Made by a program: the position numbers and the translations under genes
Shown: positions 1,166 to 64,000 of the stretch, piece after piece
Position numbering within the stretch: the first letter of the stretch is position 1
Layout: every line of letters starts with the position of its first letter
Notes under the pieces: generated by a model
What the model saw: only the letters and a program-made list of their open reading frames with translations
Told to the model about the DNA's origin: nothing
Databases searched by the model: none
Source: Entophlyctis helioformis
Lineage: Eukaryota; Chytridiomycota; Chytridiomycetes; Chytridiales; Chytriomycetaceae
Direction: 5' to 3'
DNA: 64,000 bases
Assembly: GCA_025526915.1 (NCBI GenBank)
Contig: JAHLKH010000015.1
Span: 124,001 to 188,000 of the forward strand

Positions 1166-3621
1166 TCAAGCGGCCTCCTGCCCCTTTTGCCGGCCAGACT
1201 CCATCTTGGCAGTCCGTGCACCAAACTGCACAGCGCGTTTGGGCTCGACCGCCGCGCGGCTCAGCCCAAGCATCTCAGCGGCCTGTCTCAGCAGCAGTTT
1301 GTCGCCGACGCCCTTGGCGAGTCGGGGATCGACCTTGAGATGGACGGGGAGCCCACACAGCAGAGACGTGACCGAGCCGTCAAGGAACGGGAACCGCACC
1401 TCTTTGCCGTGGGACGCGATGATGCGGTCGTCGCGGCCGAGATTGCGCGACGCGATTCGCGACACGTCCAGCTGCAGCTCCGTGACGAGTCCCTGCCAGC
1501 CGGATTTGATGTACTGCACTCGGTGTCGGCCATATCCGCCCAGCTGACCATATCGCCATTCATGTCAGCTGCCATTCATGCTGCGGTGTCATATCAGCAG
1601 CCGTGGGCACGCATGCCATGCACCCACCTGTTCGTCGGCACCAAGACCGCTGAACAGCACGCGTGCCTTGCTCTCATAGGGCATCTGGCTGCCATCGTCT
1701 AGCGTGACCACGCCTGTGCATCGCTACACCGTCAGTCTAGCCACACATCCCAACACCGCACCACTCAACCTGCCTACCACAGCCACGAGACGCGAACCAA
1801 AACGCCATCGCAATACTCTGTCGCGATCAGCAACCGTGTTAGGACATTGCTTGCCAGAATGGACAAGAGGAGGATCGAGTCGGCTCACCAGGTCCATGAC
1901 AGTCGACAGGGGAGCCATGAGACGCTGGATACGAGACCGCTGCGCAACAGCCTCGGTGTACGGGACATCCACCTCAATGAACCGCCACACGCGGCCAGGG
2001 AACAGGGCACGCAGTTCACCGGCACCCAATCGACCCGTGACGCGATCAGGCACATCGTACGTCCCACTCCCGCTCGCACTGTCGTCACCATCACCGCCAC
2101 TGCCAGCGCGATCGCGGTGGTGTTTCTTGGACGCCGATGCAGACGCCGACGCGGCAGACCGAGCGCGGTGGCTCGCAATGCGGGGGTTCTCAAACCCGAC
2201 GTTGAGGAGATCGATCGGCTCGTCCATCGGCAGCGCGTCGTGGGCGAGCGCCGCCAGCACCATGCAGTCCAGCCCGCCCGAGAACAGGATGCCGAGCCGC
2301 GCCGTGTCGGGCAATGCCGGCGGCGGGATTGTGAGAGCGCGGCGCTCGACCGCGACCGACAGCGTCATCCAGAGGGATTGCACCGCCGAGTCCATGGCCA
2401 TGCCTGGCATCAGGGCGGGCAGTCTTGCTGGCGGCTGGCCGTCGGCCTGCGGCGGAGGGACGGTCTCGAGTTTCGATTCGTCTGGGATGTCCGTGTTGAG
2501 CAGCAGCGATGGGCATGTCTGCGTGTCGCATGGCACGTTCCTGTGCTGTCAGCATTCGTCCAAGGGCCAAGGTGGCCGTGTGTGCACAGCCATGGCAGGC
2601 GTACCAGCGGCGAATCGGACTCGGGCGTCCAAGGAATGTGCCGCAGATACGACTCTGTGTTGGTCCAGTCCAGCGTCTCGTTAGCGACGGCAGCCAGATC
2701 GAGCACGAATATCCCCGTGGCAGGCACTTCGGCCCAGAACGGATCTGCTTGCTCTGTCTGGCTGTCGCCATCGGCTTCAGGGCTGTCGACGACCGCTGGC
2801 TCAGGAGCCGTGTCCGAGACGTCGCCGACCGACGACACGAGGAACAAGTCCGATGGGCTGCGTGGCGCGTGCATGAGCAGCGACCGGCGGCCTAGATAGT
2901 CACGACCAAAGTAGACGCGATTGGAAGCCGCCTGCCATCCGATCCCATCCGATCCCATCCCATCACAGCCAGCCAGCCAGTCAGTCGTTCGCCTCGCCTC
3001 GACCGTCCAAGCAGCTGCCCAGCATGCCAAGACGCACATGATGGTAGACGAGTGCCCATTCGCCGTCGATCTGCGACACAGACTGCAGGATCTGCGGCTC
3101 GGTCGTCGCCCCCGCCAGCATGCGAGACACGGCAAGCGTGTCGCTGGCGTCGGCGGCCATGTCGCTCGAGTACACCTCGCCGTTGAATGCGAGTGTGTTG
3201 GATCGGGCGTCGGTGAGCGGCTGTCCAGCGAGCACGGCGCCGCGCAGATGGAGCACCCAGCCATGCAGCTGCGCATGCAGAGTGCCGCTGGGCGACGTCC
3301 ATGTGTGGCAGCCGTGGGCATCCGGGCCTGATCGGCATTGGCGTTAGTCGGTGTATGTGTCGGTGTCGGTCGCAGGTGCTGGTGTCGGTCGCAGTGAGTA
3401 GTTTGCAGGCTTGGACAGCCAGCCGTACCTCGAAGCGCATTGGACTCGCACAGACGCTGCACACGGCTTGCGTTCTGCATGCAGGCACGGCAGGCGTCAG
3501 AGCAGCCACACGGTGCACGCCCGTCTATGCAGACACGCAGACACGCAGACACGCAGACACACACGCGCACTTCTGCCGTCCTGTCGGCTGTGCGCGAGAG
3601 CGCCAGCAGAATCCCGCACAT
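1166..3621 (-). CDS. ASNSD1: Asparagine synthetase domain-containing protein (ASNSD1-like)
   Basis: Eight exons join in frame: 3621-3571, 3474-3429, 3327-3038, 2931-2605, 2545-1889, 1817-1778, 1713-1628 and 1543-1166, giving 624 residues (human ASNSD1 is about 640). The start is fixed by MCGILLALS: Cys2 is the N-terminal nucleophile of the class II glutamine amidotransferase fold. Then come [13 protein letters not shown] and the [12 protein letters not shown] motif, all typical of Asn synthetase-type glutaminase domains. The C-terminal half has the PP-loop [25 protein letters not shown] and [18 protein letters not shown], characteristic of the ASNSD1/yeast YML096W family rather than true asparagine synthetase. 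The family's biochemical activity is poorly defined. Exon 2 is only 46 nt and exon 6 only 40 nt. The start codon lies 53 bases from the SAE1 start on the other strand. Confidence 0.93.
3531..3570. repeat. GACACGCA short tandem repeat in intron
   Basis: A run of cagacacg units lies just downstream of the splice donor of intron 1 of the ASNSD1-like gene. Confidence 0.8.
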
Positions 3622-3674
3622 GGCACGCCGTCTTCGGTGAGCAGCGCAGGCCGACGTTTGCGCGACAGTCGAAT
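3622..3674. promoter_or_regulatory. Very short divergent intergenic space (ASNSD1 / SAE1)
   Basis: Only 53 bases separate the two opposed start codons, so the 5' UTRs and core promoters must overlap each other or the coding sequence. No TATA box is visible. Confidence 0.5.
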
Positions 3675-5423
3675 ATGAAGCGCGGGCAGGAAGGCCCGAG
3701 ATCGCCCACAAAGCGAGCGCGGCTGGAGGAGCCGTCCGAGTCCCGGCCGGCCGAGCAGAGTGTCGGCGGCCAGGCAGCGTCGCCGCCAAAGGCCGCACGT
3801 CCGTCCAGCCCGTCAAAGTCGCAGCAGCCGCAGCAGCCGCAGCAGTCGCAGCAGTCGCAGCAGTCGCAGCAGCCGCAGCAGTCGCTGTCGGCCAAGAGCA
3901 AAGGCAAGGCAAGGGCCGACCAGCACCCGCAGCTGACGGTCGAGGAGGCCAAGCTGTACGACCGCCAGATCCGCCTGTGGGGCATGGAAGCGCAGCAGCG
4001 GTGAGCATCTCGCTACTTGGCTCTTGCCTCGCAGCTCGATCACTTGCCTCGACTCACCCGCCGTTGGATGGACTGGACAGGATGCGCACATCGCGTATCC
4101 TCGTGGCCGGCTGCACGGGCCTGGCCAACGAGGTGCTCAAGAACATTGTGCTTGCCGGTGTGGGCTCGATCACGGTGCTCGATGCCGGCACCGTCGTCCC
4201 CCGCGACCTCGGCTCGCAGTTCTTTCTCCGCGACAGTGATGTTGGCAAGAACGTGGGTGGCTGTGGGTGGCCATAGGTGGCCGTGGATGGCATTGCAGAC
4301 GCTGCTGGCAAGACAGAATGACTGACGGGATGCGTCGTCGGTGTTATGGTCCCTCAGAGAGCAGAGGCTGTTGCGCCACGTGTCCAGCAACTCAACCCGC
4401 GCGTAAAGGTTGTGGCGTGCACACGGCCCATTGACCAGCTCGAGGACGGCTTCTTTGACGACTTTGATCTCGTCTGTGTCATCAGCACCAACCCGTCCGT
4501 GCTGGTACGACGGCCGCTCTGCATCCTTGCCTCCACCATGCCATGCAGACTGACGATGCCTCTGGGGACGGCGCTGTGCACAGACCAAGATCAACTCGAT
4601 TGCACGCGCCAAGTCGCTGTCGTTCTGGGGTGCGGCCATTATGGGCATGTACGGTTACATCTTTAGCGACCACGGGCCCGAGTACCGCTACATGACCACC
4701 CACCACGCTGCTGCTCCGACGGCGACGGCGGCTGCAACTGCGACTGCAGCAAAGACAGATGCAGCGTCACGCGTCGAGCAGTCCCTGTCGTACTGCTCGT
4801 TTGCAGACGCGGTGACGCATGCCACATTTGGCGCCACCAAGATGGACCGTCGGTTCAAACGCAAGGCACACCCGCTCTACTTTGCTCTCCGTGGTGAGTG
4901 GCATCTGTGGCATCTGCGTGTTGCATGGACGTGTCGGCAACGCAGACTCATCCCTCGTTGCGTGGCTGCGTGGTGTGCAGTGCTGTGGGAGGCTTGGACC
5001 GAGCACGGCAGGTTTCCAGATCCGAGCCACGATGCGCAGCTGGATGAGCTGCTGGCCACCAAGACGGCCGCCATGGCCAAGGCCGAGTGCGATCCCGCCT
5101 TTCTGCCGGACGACCTGCTCAAGTGGGTGCCGCCTCGCCCCTCATTGTTGTCTGCGCACGCGTCTGTTTCGTGTCGGGTGGCACCGCCACCCACCATCAT
5201 TGTTGTTCACGCTGACGCACCCCATTGTGCCACACGCAGGGCCGTTGCCGCTGTGGTGGACCGCGAGCTGCAGCCTGCGTGTGCCGTCCTGGGCGGCCTG
5301 CTTGCACAGGAGCTGCTCAAGGTGCTGTCGCGCTCCGAGGCGCCGTTCCACAACGTGCTGCTCTACGACAGCTTCGAGGCTGTTGCGCAGACCATGGCGG
5401 TCGGCATCGACGCCCGTGTCTGA
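3675..5423 (+). CDS. AOS1: SUMO-activating enzyme subunit 1 (AOS1/SAE1)
   Basis: Six exons join in frame: 3675-4000, 4081-4252, 4358-4504, 4584-4893, 4981-5122 and 5240-5423, giving 426 residues. The N-terminus is a disordered Ser/Pro/Gln tract with QPQQ repeats. It is followed by LYDRQIRLWGMEAQQR and ILVAGCTGLANEVLKNIVLAG, the nucleotide-binding start of the E1 pseudo-adenylation half. DLVCVISTNPSVL, SFWGAAIMGMYGYIFSD and a C-terminal AVLGGLLAQELLKVLS complete the family signature. AOS1 pairs with UBA2 to adenylate SUMO in the nucleus; the catalytic Cys is on UBA2, so its absence here is expected. The glycine loop reads GCTGLA, close to the usual GxxGLG. Confidence is high because all six exons agree in phase. 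Confidence 0.93.
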
Positions 5424-57049: not shown

Positions 57050-59748
57050 TTACTCGGCCTGGCCTGGCTGAATGACATCGTCAATCTTGAGCACCATCTT
57101 GACCAGCTGCGTTGCAAGGTAGAACTGCGAGCGCTTCGAGATGAGCGGGTCAAACACGTGCTGGCTGCGCATGTCGTTGGAGCCGCGCAGGTTGCAGTCA
57201 ATGCCGAGTCTCGAGTTGTTCTCGGTTGCCTGGCGAGACTTGATCTCGGCGAGCGTCTCGATCGGGGGGAGTCCAGAGTTCTCGGCAAGGGCGAGGGGGA
57301 TGGCGTCGAGGGCAGACGCAAACGCGCGCATGGCGTACTGCTCAATCGACGAGATCTGGTCGGCTGCCTTGGAGACAGCGAGCGAGCAAGTGATCTCGGC
57401 AGCACCGCCACCGTAGACGATGCGGCCGTCACGCACAAGGTTGCGCACCACACAGATGGCGTCGTGGAGACTGCGCTTGGCCTCGTCAATGATCTGCACA
57501 ATAAAGTGGCAATGCAACACGGACACAGTCAGTTGTCAGCCAGGCGATCGACTGGCGGAGATGAGCAGCCATTAACTCGACAGCAAGCAACATACCATCT
57601 TGTTGCCACCGCGCACAAAGAGCGTGACAGCGCGCGTGTTGGCGCACTCTTCAATGACAAGCATGCGGTCCTTGGTCGTGCCAAACGAGATCTCGCGGAC
57701 AACACCGGCCTTGCCGAGCTTCTCGGCAGAGAGCTCTGCAAAGCGGGGAACAATGCGGCCGTTGGTCGCAATAGCAATAAGCTGCGAGTGAACAATCATA
57801 TCCAGCCATGGCCATGGTTAGCATCGAGGCTTGCGCGTTCAAGGGCCAAACAACAAAGCAAAGCAGCAGCAACAATAACACACCTCGATCTCAGGACCGC
57901 CAACCCAGCGGACGGCAGGAAGCTGGTTCTGGAGAAGCAGGTGGTTGGCCTCGTCGTCAAAGCCCCACTGGCAGATGACCAGGTTCGCGCCACAGTCCTT
58001 GACCTGCTTGACCATCTCGTCAAACTTGTCCTTTTCGTACTGCTGCAGCTTCTTGTATTCTTCCACGGACGTGATGTCGAGCTGGTGCTTGGTCTTGGGC
58101 TTGGGGGGCTCAAAGGGGCAGGTGAGAATGGCGAGCTTGGCGTCGCGGATCTCCTTGGGCATCTGCGGGTGCGAAAAGTCCTTGTCGACAACAACACCGT
58201 ACACGATCTTGGAGTCCTCGAGCGAGCCGCCGACCTTGCCGTCGACCTTGATGAGCTCAAAGTCCACGTCCTTGCGCTCAAGGTCGGCAACGGCCAGAAC
58301 GGCATCCACAGCCATCTGGGCAAACTTGTCGTGGCACTTGGAGACACTGTTCAAGGGGATGCCAGGCCGCGTCCGCGTCAGTCACAGTCGCCACGCGTCG
58401 ACGTGCAGACAATGACTGCACGACGCTCTTACATCTTGGAGCCAAGACAGGTCTTGGCTGTGCGGTGGAGGATGTCCAGGTTGTCCTTGTCAAACGTGAT
58501 CACATCGGCGACGGTGTCGAGATGCGCCACGGCAACATTACAGGCACGCTCGAAACCATCGGCAATGCGGATGGGGTGGATGCCCTTGTCCAACAGAGAC
58601 TCGGCCTGCTCAAGGAGAGCACCAGCAAGAACTGCAGATCCAGGCCATTGGCGGTCATGCATCCGAGTTAGAAACGTGGGGCCAATCCAGAGTATCCAGT
58701 GTGCAGCAGATCAGACGGCCCGGCCAAAGACGCACCAACAACACCCGTGGTGCCATCGCCAATCTCATCGTCCTGGCTCTTGGACAGCTGCACAAGGAGC
58801 TTGGCGATCTCGTGCTCCACCTCCATGCGCTCCATGATGGTTGCGCCGTCGTTGGTGATGGTGATGTCGCCGTCGGGCGAGATGAGGATCTTGTCGAGAC
58901 CTGCAGACATCCGGCATGGGAGCGTCAGCCAAAAGACAGCAAGGCAGCCCAGGTCCAGGTCCAGTCCGTCCAGTCCAGCCAGGTCCAGTCAGCGGTATGA
59001 GCCTTGGTTGCGACCGCTGGGCTGAACTGGACAGAAACGGGCGGCGGACAGGACTCGACTCACCACGAGGGCCGAGGGACGACTTGAGGATGTTGGCAAC
59101 GGCCTTGGCAGCCAGGATGTGCGACTGGGGCGAGAGACGCAGGCAGCATTGCAGACGGGCAGATGTGGCAGCAGACACCGAGCGCACCGAGGCAGGCAGG
59201 CGGGCGGGCGGGCAGGCAAGACAGGCAGGCAAGACAGGCAGGCAAGACAGGCAGGCGGGTTGGGTCAGTTTGGCACACCACAAACGCCAGATCACGGCAG
59301 GCAGACAGGCGGAGCAGAGGCTGCCGGCGAAGCGGGCATGGCCGCAGTGTGTGCAGGTGCATCCGGCCCACTCTAGTGCTGGCTGGCTGTCTGGCTGGCT
59401 GGCTTGGTGTGCCGCACGGGCCTGCATGGCACCAAGCCAGTGCGGCCAGTACAGCCAGTGCAGCCCGCAAGCCAGTCCGACGACCAGGGGTGCGGCAGTC
59501 TCTGTCCGTCTGCCGGTGCATTGGACCACGGCGGGCTGGCTGGGCAGACGAGGCTGACGGGGCTGGCTGGGCTGACGGGGCTGACGGGGCTGACGAGGCA
59601 GGACGCAGGCGAGGGCAGAAGGGCAAGGGCCGCACACCTTTTGGGCCTCGATGCCCTTGATGCGGGTCTTGGACTGCTCGCGCAGGATGATGAGCGGACG
59701 GCCGTACTCGTCCTGGGCGTACATTGCGTCTCCGACATTGATCGACAT
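57050..59748 (-). CDS. CCT5: Chaperonin TCP-1 epsilon subunit (CCT5)
   Basis: Seven exons join in frame: 59748-59638, 59124-59064, 58900-58736, 58631-58433, 58346-57884, 57781-57596 and 57493-57050, giving 542 residues, the normal CCT length. It begins [20 protein letters not shown], a subunit-specific epsilon N-terminus (DEYGRPFI in others). Group II chaperonin motifs are intact: [45 protein letters not shown] (the ATP-binding GDGTT), [20 protein letters not shown] and [18 protein letters not shown]5 is one of eight subunits of the cytosolic TRiC complex that folds actin, tubulin and other clients. The first intron is large (about 510 bases) and full of AGGCAGGC and GGCTGACGG repeats. It lies directly downstream of the Fanzor element end. 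Confidence 0.97.
59190..59260. repeat. GGCAGGCAAGACA tandem repeat in CCT5 intron 1
   Basis: About five imperfect copies of a 13-base unit (aggcaggcaagac). Confidence 0.85.
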
Positions 59749-60072
59749 GTTGGCGGCTGCGGGGAGGCTGCGGGGGGCTGCGGGGATCTGCTGGGGCAGC
59801 GCACCGTCGACGGCCAGAGCGGGTTCGCACAGGCACGGCAGCGCTGATGGTCAGTCCCTGTGTGGCGTGGGCAGAGCGTCGTCGGTGGGTGTGTGTGCAG
59901 CTCGGCACAGCATAGCACGGCACGACGCGGCTGTTGCGCAAGACTCACAAAAGCAGTTGTCGGTCAAAGTGCGCCGAATTCACTGCGCGCTGAGGGGTGG
60001 GCAATAGGGCGAGGGAATGCCGGCAGTTGCCGGCAAAATGCCCGACATCCAAACAATTACCAAGAATCATTG
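59749..60072. other. CCT5 upstream region up to the Fanzor element end
   Basis: Carries the CCT5 promoter. The distal part (60040-60085) becomes AT-rich (caattaccaagaatcattg, ttaaattgg), where the homology with the Fanzor relic ends. No coding exon. Confidence 0.4.
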
Positions 60073-60241
60073 AATTAAATTGGACCCGAGAGGCGTCGAA
60101 TGTAAGGCAAGCACATCACACGATTGAAGGTTCGAGTCAGCAACGAGCATGCGACGACAAGCGGGCGATGTACATCCACATGCATGAGGGTCTTACCTTC
60201 GTAAGAAGTGACCCTATTGGTCGATCGGGAGGTGCCCCGAT
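60073..60241 (-). ncRNA. Candidate Fanzor guide RNA (omega RNA) scaffold region, element right end
   Basis: This segment follows the Fanzor stop codon on the same strand. Its distal part (60073-60134) is conserved in the relic at 11404-11456, including atcacacgattg and aggttcg, although it codes for nothing. In known Fanzor and TnpB loci the guide RNA spans the 3' end of the nuclease gene and runs out through the element's right end, with the guide taken from flanking DNA. By that model the scaffold would end near 60073 and the guide would be read from lower coordinates. Exact ends and folding were not computed. Confidence 0.5.
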
Positions 60242-63200
60242 TCATATTGTGCTGGAAGTCACAGCACGTGGAGTTGCATGTGCCTTGCTGGCTCGTGACC
60301 CGCGGACAGACCGTGTCCGTGGTGGAGGCGGCAGGACGATGGGCGGATCGGGTGGTCTTGGAGGCCGCTGGTTGACAGGCAGCTCAGGTACTGGAAGCTG
60401 CTGGACGACAGGCTGACTGGCCTTTGTGTGCGTCAAGTAGAGCGGCCGCTCTCCATCGAGCAAATGCCCCAGTGCGACCATTCCGATGTTGGTGGCTCCA
60501 AGCACGTCTCGGTGGTAGACGGCCTTGCATGCTGTGCACTCGTAGCGTCGCAGGTTGGTGCGGTTCTTGTATGGGATCCGCTGCTTGCACTGCGGGCACA
60601 TCTGGCTGGTCAGGTTCTCGTTGCAGCGGTAGATCTGTGTGTGTGTGTGCAGGATCGTGTGGTCAGTTGGTGCACAGATGGATGGATGGATGGATGGCAT
60701 GGCATCAGACGCACATAGGCATATCCAGACGACCGCAGATGCCTGATGAGAAACTTCTCAAACACAGCGTGCCGGACCACCTTGCCTGTAAAGTCGATGC
60801 CAAATGCCCACACAACGGGAATGTCCTTCTCTGTCGACTTTTTTGGATCGAAGGGCAGGCCTTGAGACGCAGGAGATGCGCGCTTGCCAGTGGTCGATCC
60901 TGCCAGCTTCATGATGCCTTCAAGAGCATGTCCGCGAAAAGACATGCTGTTGCTGCGCATGGAAAAACGCTCGGCCTTGACCTTCTGTGGAATGCCATGC
61001 CATGCCACTCAATGCAATCAGCAGGCGATCAAGCAGCATGGCGATCATGCCGATATGCATTCAGAAGCAGAGAAAACATACCTTTGCATTCAGGAATGTC
61101 GAGCAGTACGCCAAGCAGCGAAGATCCCAAAAGGCTCTCTCGCCTGCTGAGACGCCTGGATCGGCATGCTTTGCCATCTTGAAGGCAATCGCCTCATGGA
61201 TGTCGGCTGCCTTGGCATATCGATTGTTGAACCTGGCACAAGAGACAGGCACTGTGAGTTGATCTGGTCAAGAGTGCACAGAGTCATTGCATACATACCA
61301 TCGCAGAAGTTCGCGCTCAGCTTGAAATAAGCCAGAGGAGAGCACATAGTTGGACTCGTGCGTGTATGTCTCGGTTCGACATTGACCAGCATGCTGGACG
61401 CGCCAAACAGGTACCGCTGGCCCCAGTCTAGACTGACAACGCGAACAGTCTCATAGCCCTTGTCGGCGAGCAGCTTGTTGGCATCAGCAACATCAGGTAG
61501 TCGCTGGGATGCATTGAAGTTGCGCTTGGCCTGTCATGCCATGGCATGAGTGAGGGATGTGCAATGCATGTGCACCAATGCGCGAGGTTAGCATGCAAGT
61601 GACATACAAGGTTTGGCACTTTTGGCTTGGCAGCTGTGGATGGCATGTCAGTTGGTGTGGACAGCAAGTACGCGTCTGGATTGGCACAGCAACTCACATT
61701 CGCCGTTGAGGTAATCAGGCACACAATCAGCCTCATTGGCAAGACTGGGAAGCTCGCATGAAGACGCCGTGTCGGGACCTGCGAAGCAAGGCGGCGGTTA
61801 GAATTGATGTGTGCACCAAAGCATCCAAGCACGGCACATACTGCAAGGCGACTCTGGACGGTCTGTGCGATAATCGCGAACCAACTGGCCGACGCTGTAT
61901 CCGTTCGAGATGACGCTACTCATCCGTGTCCGTTTGGTTGGTCTCGCTGGGGGTAGAGCATCAACCGCAGCCTGGATGAAGTTCTTGCGCTCCTTGCCAC
62001 GCAGACGCTGCTTCTTGGCCTCTTGCGTCGCCTTGGCTCTAGCCGCTTTCTTGGCCTTGGTGTTGGCTGCGTCCATTTCCGCTTCGGCTTCTGCCGGCGT
62101 TTGATACCGGCCTTTCTTGGGGCGGAGGCCGGGAAGCAGGACGTCCATGACGCAATTCTCGCGACTCGAGCTGAATGCCTTCTTGATCTCGCTGTCGGTT
62201 GACTTGAGTGTCAACTTTTTCGAGCCAGGCTCTTTGAGAAAGGTGGATTGTTAGTATCAAATCATAAAAAGATGGCACAAACAGGCAGTGCAACTTACTG
62301 ATCGCAGCAAGTAGCTCCTTTCGCAGTGCTTGCAAAGCAGGATCCTGCCCCTTGCTGTCGCGCTCCTTCTTTGTCCCCATCACAGACCAAAAGAGTGTCC
62401 TCTCTGTGATGAGAACGAAAGGGTCGCAGCTTGCCGGCTGCGGGCAAAGCTTGATGCTCTGTCTCCCAGCGAGATCGCGCAGCGCATGGAACTTGCCGGG
62501 ATGCGACAGCGACTCACTGAGCACAATCGCAGCGAGCTCGTCTAGCTCTGGAGGTAGCACGACAACGGCCTTGCCCTCTGTGGCTGAGGAAGAGCTGGAT
62601 GCTGCGGCCTTCTTGCTGCGTGGCTTCTTTGGTGCGTCCTTGCCCTCCGTGGCTGGCGATGGGCTCGGCGCCGCGCTCTCGGTGGTGGCAGCCTTCCCGA
62701 CACATGGCTTCTTGGCATCCTTGGCAGCGGCGGCCTTAGCAACGCGTGGCTTCTTGGCGGCTTTGGCAGCAGCACCGTTGGCAGCCGTGGCGTCCTTGGC
62801 AGTGGTGTCCTTGCCGACGCGTACCTTCTTGGCTACGCCGCCCTTGTCGGTGATTGAAGTGCTGGACGCGGTCCGCTTGTGGGTTGGCGCGGGGTCCTTG
62901 CCGACGCGTACCTTCTTGGCTACGCCGCCCTTGTCGGTGATTGAAGTGCTGGACGCGGTCCGCTTGTGGGTTGGCACGGCGTCCTCAGTGGCAGCCTTCC
63001 CAACGCGTGGCTTCTTGGTGGCTATGGCAGCAGCAAGCCTGGCGTCCCTGGTGGCTTTGGCAGCTGCATCCCTGACGGCTTTGGCAGCTGCACGCTCGGC
63101 GTCCCTGGCGGCTTTGGCAGCTGCACGCTCGGCGTCCCTGGCGGCTTTGGCAGCTGCACGCTCGGCGTCCTTGGCAGCTTTGGCAGCTGCGCGCTTGGCG

Positions 63201-64000
63201 TCCCTGACGGCTTTGGCAGCTGCGCGCTTGGCGTCCCTGGCGGCGTTGGCAGCTACACGCTTGGGATCCTTGGCGTCTGCGGCGTCCTTGGCAGCTTTGG
63301 CAGCAGCGCGCTTGGCGGCGTTGGCAGCAGCACGCTTGGCGGTCTCAGCGTCCCTGGCTTTCTTGATCAGGTACGTAGTCCACGCCGTCGCTTGCTTGGG
63401 AGTTGAACCGCGCACAAGCTTGAGGCACGCTGCAAACACCAGGTCGGACTGGCTTCCAATGTAGTGCTGCGCCAGCATGGCACACACACTCTTGGCGAGG
63501 TTGCTGAAGATATCATTCGCAGCTTCCGCGCAGAGGCTGCCGTCAAGCCTGTCTGGTAGAGCCGGCTCCTGCGCGACGGCTGGCGGCATTTTGGGCTGTG
63601 GTATGCCTTTCTTGATCGCATTGGCGTGCACCATGCCTCGCGTCCATGACCGGTGCATCATCAGCTGCATGGCCGTGACGAGCCACGCGTTGATCGTGCT
63701 CATATTGAGACCCGGCTGGGCCATCTGCTTGCCACTGAAAATGTACGACAGGTGGCGCAGCATACAGGCCATGGACGTCTCGCCGCCAGAAGCGCTGCTG
63801 ATGATCTCCGTGAGCAGTTGGTTCGCTGTTGGCACCGCCGGTGCTGCTCCTGGCTGCTCAGACTCGTCGGCGTCCTCGGCGTCCTCAGACTCGTCGGCGT
63901 CCTCAGACTCGTCGGCGTCCTCAGACTCGTCGGCGTCCTCGATGTCCTCAATGTCCTCATACTCGTCGGCGTCCTCGCTGTCCTTTGACTTCTTGACCCT
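60242..64000 (-). CDS. Fanzor RNA-guided DNA endonuclease (TnpB-like), 5' partial
   Basis: Eight exons: from beyond 64000 to 62299, then 62231-61842, 61778-61698, 61633-61608, 61530-61295, 61232-61082, 60984-60715 and 60634-60242. They join in frame to about 1,082 visible residues. RuvC-I is in VRVVSLDWGQRYLFGAS (Asp near 61425). A bridging region reads FNNRYAKAADIHEAIAFKMA. PVVWAFGIDFTGKVVRHAVF follows. The four-Cys zinc finger is CPQCKQRIPYKNRTNLRRYE then CTAC, and RuvC-III is YHRDVLGATNIGMVAL. This order and the RD--GA-NI ending are the Fanzor/TnpB signature. The RuvC-II Glu was not assigned; ALEGIM in the 60715-60984 exon is one candidate. The N-terminal half is acidic (DESEDADESED) then Lys/Ala-rich. 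The frame is open at the window edge, so the true start is missing. Confidence 0.9.
62814..62987. repeat. Two 87-base tandem copies inside the Fanzor gene
   Basis: Copies start at 62814 and 62901 and are nearly identical. Each encodes 29 residues of the type PTHKRTASSTSITDKGG then VAKKVRVGKD, a basic patch that could act as a nuclear localisation signal. Confidence 0.9.
63045..63345. repeat. Degenerate 45-base and shorter repeats encoding Ala/Lys/Arg helices
   Basis: Repeated gctttggcagctgcacgctc units encode AKAARDAERAAAKAARDAER-type runs in the Fanzor N-terminal half, predicted as long charged helices. Confidence 0.85.

Follow-up and report, generated by a model that had tools for sequence, protein, structure and literature searches.

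The window analysed here is a stretch of 64,000 nucleotides (C15:124001-188000) from the genome of the chytrid Entophlyctis helioformis, which comprises 29.6 Mb in 482 contigs. At its far end, on the minus strand, lies the 3' part of a Fanzor-type gene whose stop stands at 60242 in our hand model, together with the right part of the transposon that carries it. The features concerned, including one coding region outside the window, are as follows.

60242..64000, minus strand: 3' part of the gene, exons 12 to 19 (hand model)
62299..64000, minus strand: exon 12 (continues to 64495), running from a helical region through an Ala/Lys-rich linker to the start of the Fanzor REC/WED-like region
61842..62231, minus strand: exon 13, WED-like region, with SNG at the position of the TDG motif
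61698..61778, minus strand: exon 14 (hand model)
61608..61633, minus strand: exon 15 (hand model)
61299..61530, minus strand: exon 16, RuvC-I SLDWGQR with its Asp codon from 61428; frameshift near 61378
61082..61232, minus strand: exon 17 (hand model)
60715..60984, minus strand: exon 18, RuvC-II region (hand model)
60242..60634, minus strand: exon 19, with the shifted Glu codon at 60619, the CPQC/CTAC finger, the RuvC-III Asp codon at 60508 and the stop
60037..60241, minus strand: noncoding 3' block common to copies, where an omegaRNA scaffold would lie
59992..64000, minus strand: right part of the transposon, at whose right end the copies abruptly cease to be similar
59983..59991, no strand: 9-bp flank, candidate target-site duplication (7/9 bases match the left flank)
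Window-equivalent about 66277-67670, outside the window, minus strand: coding region of the FEN/XPG-like domain (hand model)

Codon-usage gene finding proved too noisy, and the gene was delineated instead with the hand model and a spliced aligner. The preliminary description of this DNA had reported seven introns and the motifs SLDWGQR, CPQC/CTAC and HRDVLGATNIG. Indeed, all three motifs are present, and exons 12 to 19 are separated within 60242-64000 by seven GT-AG introns, the positions of which are common to 14, 17, 18, 18, 17, 18 and 18 of 18 copies. It had also placed the start of the gene past position 64000, and an ATG was found there at window-equivalent 67670, i.e. 3.7 kb beyond the window (locus L009); in-frame stops in this 5' part, named beforehand as grounds for rejection, do not occur in the hand model. 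The full gene is thereby modelled as about 2,030 codons in 19 exons, separated by 18 introns. The introns had further been taken as a sign of long residence in a nuclear genome, a dating that does not hold: the same introns occur in diverged copies, so they are older than the spread of the family and give no date for the insertion in the window. Window positions 62600-63400 form an Ala/Lys-rich linker, histone-H1-like and containing tandem repeats, whose length in the window copy far exceeds that in other copies.

The reading frame of the window copy is not intact. The CDS spliced from the upstream ATG measures 6089 nt, which is no multiple of three, and in the spliced alignment exon 16 carries one frameshift, close to window position 61378. 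At this site, between RuvC-I and RuvC-II, the window copy is one base short when compared with four siblings (L020, L032, L033 and L035), all of which are in frame; a further sibling, L034, was left out of the comparison because the search motif matched the wrong place. Exons 17-19 contain stops unless the frameshift is allowed for. An alternative acceptor of intron 16 could rescue the downstream frame, in which case about 25 residues would lie outside the frame of the family. Thus, the introns are not removed cleanly in phase, as had been claimed, and the gene is broken where it had seemed intact; being frame-shifted, the window copy is not the strong candidate for a functional nuclease, let alone the strongest, that it was first thought to be. 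In L020, the closest sibling of the window copy, the equivalent of exon 13 bears about 250 extra nt with repeats and a stop.

Twelve copies were re-aligned under loose splice rules, in which extra introns can mask breaks. In the first run, ten of them showed one to four breaks each; L019 and L013 showed no frameshift or stop, but were given 35 and 32 introns, some of them surely spurious. When these two were re-run against their own first-pass proteins, one frameshift appeared in L019 and one stop in L013, so that no copy can be named as surely open. Damage to the copies, or assembly indels, is common. What stands in the window is thus a genuine copy of an abundant transposon, though a broken one, and this transposon appears, from its sequence, to encode a FEN-like/Fanzor fusion, the fusion being what is new here; both the FEN/XPG-like continuation of the frame and the high-copy setting lay outside the view of the first description.

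That description had called the gene a Fanzor nuclease, which stands as regards the superfamily: the RuvC and C4 finger are those of Fanzor/TnpB, and the window protein matches PF07282 (Cas12f1-like TNB) with E=1.3e-11. It is the RuvC-I motif, DWG rather than DPG, that departs from the name. The guided_TnpB model matched 8/8 members (best 4.8e-8), yet below NCBI's cut-off, and PF07282 gave at least 150 matches above cut-off in the genome (205 candidate places, 150 of them scored). In the spliced alignments, 21/21 copies keep both the RuvC-III Asp and the glutamate that precedes the finger by six residues, and RuvC-I reads DWG in 18/21, L017, L023 and L028 not being alignable there. In the available part of Yoon et al. 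(PMC10711439), the Fanzor fingerprint consists of DPG in RuvC-I and the shifted glutamate; the family has the shifted glutamate (Ealt) and lacks DPG. The same portion describes a TDG motif in the WED domain of Fanzor1, which is present in 9/10 compared copies and reads SNG in the window copy. The Fanzor1 motif D-X(125,275)-[TS][TS]-XX-C4-X(5,50)-RD, as given in the accessible text of Bao and Jurka (PMC3627910), can be read in the family protein. From these features the C-terminal nuclease is filed as a divergent Fanzor1-like variant. It would add a family that has the shifted glutamate but DWG, and thus falls outside the DPG fingerprint.

At the other end of the protein, the first ~370 residues hold VDV, HVDG, HEADVCIA, NDSDL and a DY..GxG stretch, in that order. 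Residues D58, D108, G109, E194, A195, D196, D221 and D223 are invariant in 7/7 rows of an alignment whose members are 33-54% identical to the window copy, and the next acidic residue, that of the DY stretch, is a D in six rows, L019 having E instead. We take D58, D108, E194, D196, D221 and D223 to be the acidic set of a FEN active site. Two different FEN-superfamily models are the top matches at the same place: XPG_I_2, the most frequent, was found in 4/7 members (best 2.8e-4) and in a second scan in 6/8 (best 6.8e-5), and 5_3_exonuc_N in 1/7 and 3/8 members. A search of contigs for a wider FEN alignment returned 2 short bacterial loci, and the host XPG, EXO1-like and FEN1 cores were used instead. 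Against these, hhalign aligned the same motifs (E=0.002, probability 14%) at 13% identity over 106 columns, and the acidic motifs follow one another in the order and at the distances found in the host cores. The alignment behind the hhalign comparison, the 6/8 scan and a later PDB profile search carries one mistyped residue.

It is quite improbable that the N-terminus consists of a conserved transposon domain merely resembling FEN/XPG, the true partner of the Fanzor half being another, although several results lean that way. The window copy alone matches XPG under the Pfam cut-off (E=0.12); PF00867, the model of the host FEN family, matches four host exons and no transposon copy; and the PDB profile searches with this domain returned no FEN entry, their matches being set aside as unrelated proteins. 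Against this stand the lead of two distinct superfamily models at one place and the host-like order and spacing of the acidic residues. Searched against the protein database, the first 952 residues had no match. The PIN region has a dN/dS of 0.31-0.52 in 7 usable pairs out of 12, three having been left out for want of a PIN row and two (0.56 and 0.75) because the PIN region of L025 did not align. Such purifying selection, together with the conserved catalytic residues, would speak for function until recently. By its motifs and weak profile matches, then, the N-terminus looks like a FEN1/XPG-like 5'-nuclease.

Whether the two halves form one protein is a separate matter. A FEN-like nuclease gene and a Fanzor gene lying side by side in one transposon could have been joined by generous intron placement, which we regard as unlikely. 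The weak constraint on the first middle part (dN/dS 0.51-0.90) would suit two genes, as would the public gene models, which are short separate pieces, one of them reading into an intron; the masking of breaks by extra introns, met above in L019 and L013, points the same way. However, in the hand model the window copy has an uninterrupted frame from the ATG to RuvC-I, with GT-AG introns over the whole span, and between the FEN-like and Fanzor domains 5 to 12 of 18 copies have introns of matching position and phase. Protein-database searches with the two domain alignments, which need shared 5-residue words, gave 2 and 10 matches, all from Entophlyctis helioformis.

The gene is carried by an element of about 9.9 kb (window-equivalent 59992-69905), the left end of which lies at C15:193905, outside the window. 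Downstream of the stop, the copies have in common some 200-250 nt that break off abruptly, at ATATCGGGCC in one group and, in that to which the window copy belongs, at CCCACCCCTC. The ends of the window copy are short imperfect inverted repeats (10/15 bases). Among the 8 copies of its group with both ends read, the 9-bp flanks agree at 9/9 bases in C144, where two bases stand between the duplication and the GAGGGG end, and in C121, at 8/9 in L015 and at 7/9 in the window copy; L024, L021 and C98 have no convincing 9-bp duplication, and the left end of C333 is altered. In C82, the right end was looked for and not found. The other group has the left end GCCCGGTTCTCATACC in L017, L023, L026 and L029, matches that lie at the limit of the fuzzy search, some others having been judged chance; its 9-bp flanks, compared by eye, agree at 8/9 in L026 and 7/9 in L017 and show no agreement in L029. 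A ~1-kb derivative at L017:492-1481 retains both ends, the zinc-finger exon and the 3' block. It may be a non-autonomous form, like the Fanzor 'ghost loci'.

The N-terminal domain gave at least 235 exon-level matches in the genome (150 of 314 candidates scored). Fourteen first exons, that of the window copy included, are 98-100% identical, which would speak for a recent spread of its subfamily. Contigs C277, C182, C224, C252, C171 and C95 end inside near-identical copies; the assembly thus breaks on the element, and copy counts are lower bounds. The MULE transposase domain PF10551 had 0 matches in the genome, in a search whose sensitivity is lowered by introns, and no viral contigs were found. 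Consideration was also given to those Academ transposons that carry an XPG nuclease; our literature search returned no paper combining the terms Academ and XPG nuclease.

Around the element, an ORF runs on the minus strand from about window position 59748 downward, ~244 bp beyond the right end of the transposon. By eye it resembles a subunit of the CCT chaperonin, in which case the element would lie near where a housekeeping gene begins. Beyond the window, L010 (C15:192001-198000) holds at about 2460-4930, on the minus strand, an intron-rich gene with repeated PGPxxY-type motifs. Again by eye, we take this gene to be like those of flagellar outer-dense-fibre proteins, which fits a flagellated fungus.

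The flanks past the right end vary between copies, as guides would. The 3' block next to them has a fold that is not unusual (z -0.44), covariation in which 2/37 pairs changed on both sides, in one sequence each, and a conservation of 0.875, no higher than that of nearby introns (0.89-0.94). Folding and covariation tests of this block thus lend no support to an omegaRNA, and an Rfam search had no match within the window.

Similarity between copies is unevenly distributed along the gene. Introns are on average 0.56 identical at intron 1 (6 copies) and 0.94 identical at intron 15 (18 copies), and at 4-fold sites the identity climbs from 0.37 within PIN to 0.90 within exon 18. At silent sites, 28/28 pairs are more alike in RuvC than in PIN, L013/L026 by less than rounding; these two copies are 98% alike in the REC region and have other nearest neighbours in exons 18-19. 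The window copy and L020 show the reverse, with a dS of 0 in the middle and of 0.10 at the 3' end. Selection of the copies went by finger match, which cannot by itself equalise introns and silent sites. Introns and silent sites are thus homogenised toward the 3' end, so that a 3' module has been exchanged between copies. With the left 1.3 kb of the window copy 93.8% identical to L015 and 95.4% to L024, the pattern is read as an exchange of end modules.

Such an exchange needs no Fanzor, since repair at excision breaks would do. The chances are about even that the homogenised ends stem from ordinary repair after transposase excision, or from recombination between copies, with no role for the Fanzor in a family that is decaying. 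Indeed, the left end is alike as well as the right, most of the 12 re-aligned copies are damaged, and introns are homogenised as much as exons. The purifying selection on PIN and the conserved catalytic residues, which suggest function until recently, and the recent spread seen in the 14 first exons weigh against a decaying family, but none of them shows a role in conversion.

We consider probable the reading as a whole, namely a ~9.9-kb DNA transposon with one intron-rich FEN1/XPG-like and Fanzor1-like fusion gene, which would most likely work by guided cutting, flap trimming and copying. Its protein of ~2,030 residues would comprise an N-terminal FEN1/XPG-like domain, a poorly constrained middle with the Ala/Lys-rich linker, and a C-terminal Fanzor1-like RuvC/zinc-finger nuclease, and the window copy would be a frame-shifted member of a recently spread subfamily. 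An RNA reaching from the 3' end into the flank may guide DNA cutting by the Fanzor half; flaps or gaps at the break would then be trimmed by the FEN-like half, repair would copy the element or its ends into the cut, and a transposase acting in trans would move the element. Of this, the exon anatomy, a single spliced frame that is open as far as the frameshift, the conserved acidic residues, the copy number, the ends of the element and their homogenisation are observed; the activity of both halves, the guide RNA, the transposase and any part in copying are inferred. Taken by itself, the proposal that two nucleases in one chain combine guided breaks and FEN-like end processing, with host repair copying the element or its ends into the cut, is speculative and on balance doubtful. 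Were it true, the 3'-ward rise of intron and silent identity over the nuclease core and the right end would be the footprint of guided cut-and-copy.

The biological role of Fanzors is given as unknown in the part of Saito et al. available to us (PMC10432273). A Fanzor in frame with a flap-endonuclease-like domain, conserved in diverged copies, would suggest a role in processing breaks and in copying coupled to repair, and would make Entophlyctis helioformis a named fungus in which to test such a role. Literature searches for Fanzor with FEN1 or fusion and with XPG, PIN domain or TnpB, in a collection with few subscription papers, showed no such fusion among the matches listed (15 of 951 and 20 of 68); the terms XPG and PIN domain have zero occurrences in the two main Fanzor papers listed, and a search of PMC11423790 for six terms had no match.

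Among known systems, comparison is limited to the portions available of the papers cited. SPu-1, a Fanzor1 element of the chytrid Spizellomyces punctatus, is ~2.1 kb long and has TA duplications and a single 633-aa ORF (PMC3627910, PMC10432273). Like it, the present element is mobile in a chytrid, has a RuvC with the shifted Glu, a C4 finger and the RD motif, holds no transposase and shows TDG in the WED domain of most copies. Unlike SPu-1, it spans ~9.9 kb with 19 exons and ~2,030 codons, reads DWG and not DPG, and has a FEN-like N-terminus and candidate 9-bp duplications. The lack of a transposase inside, and the 9-bp length of the duplications in those copies that show them, are shared with the MuDR-type elements ROr-4, PBl-3 and MCi-4, which carry Fanzor1 (PMC3627910). 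However, their inverted ends are those of known MuDR elements, whereas those of the Entophlyctis helioformis element are short and imperfect, in a genome with no MULE match. In the small genome of Cyanidioschyzon merolae, CMe-1A reaches about 150 Fanzor copies, and a high Fanzor copy number alone is therefore not new; in contrast to the present element, no FEN-like domain is mentioned for it in the part of that source consulted (PMC3627910).

The FEN1/XPG 5' nucleases of the host (L046, L047 and L048) share with the N-terminal domain the order of the acidic motifs and the DY..GxG stretch. The domain differs from them in its low identity (13% over the 106 columns) and in being fused to a Fanzor within a transposon.
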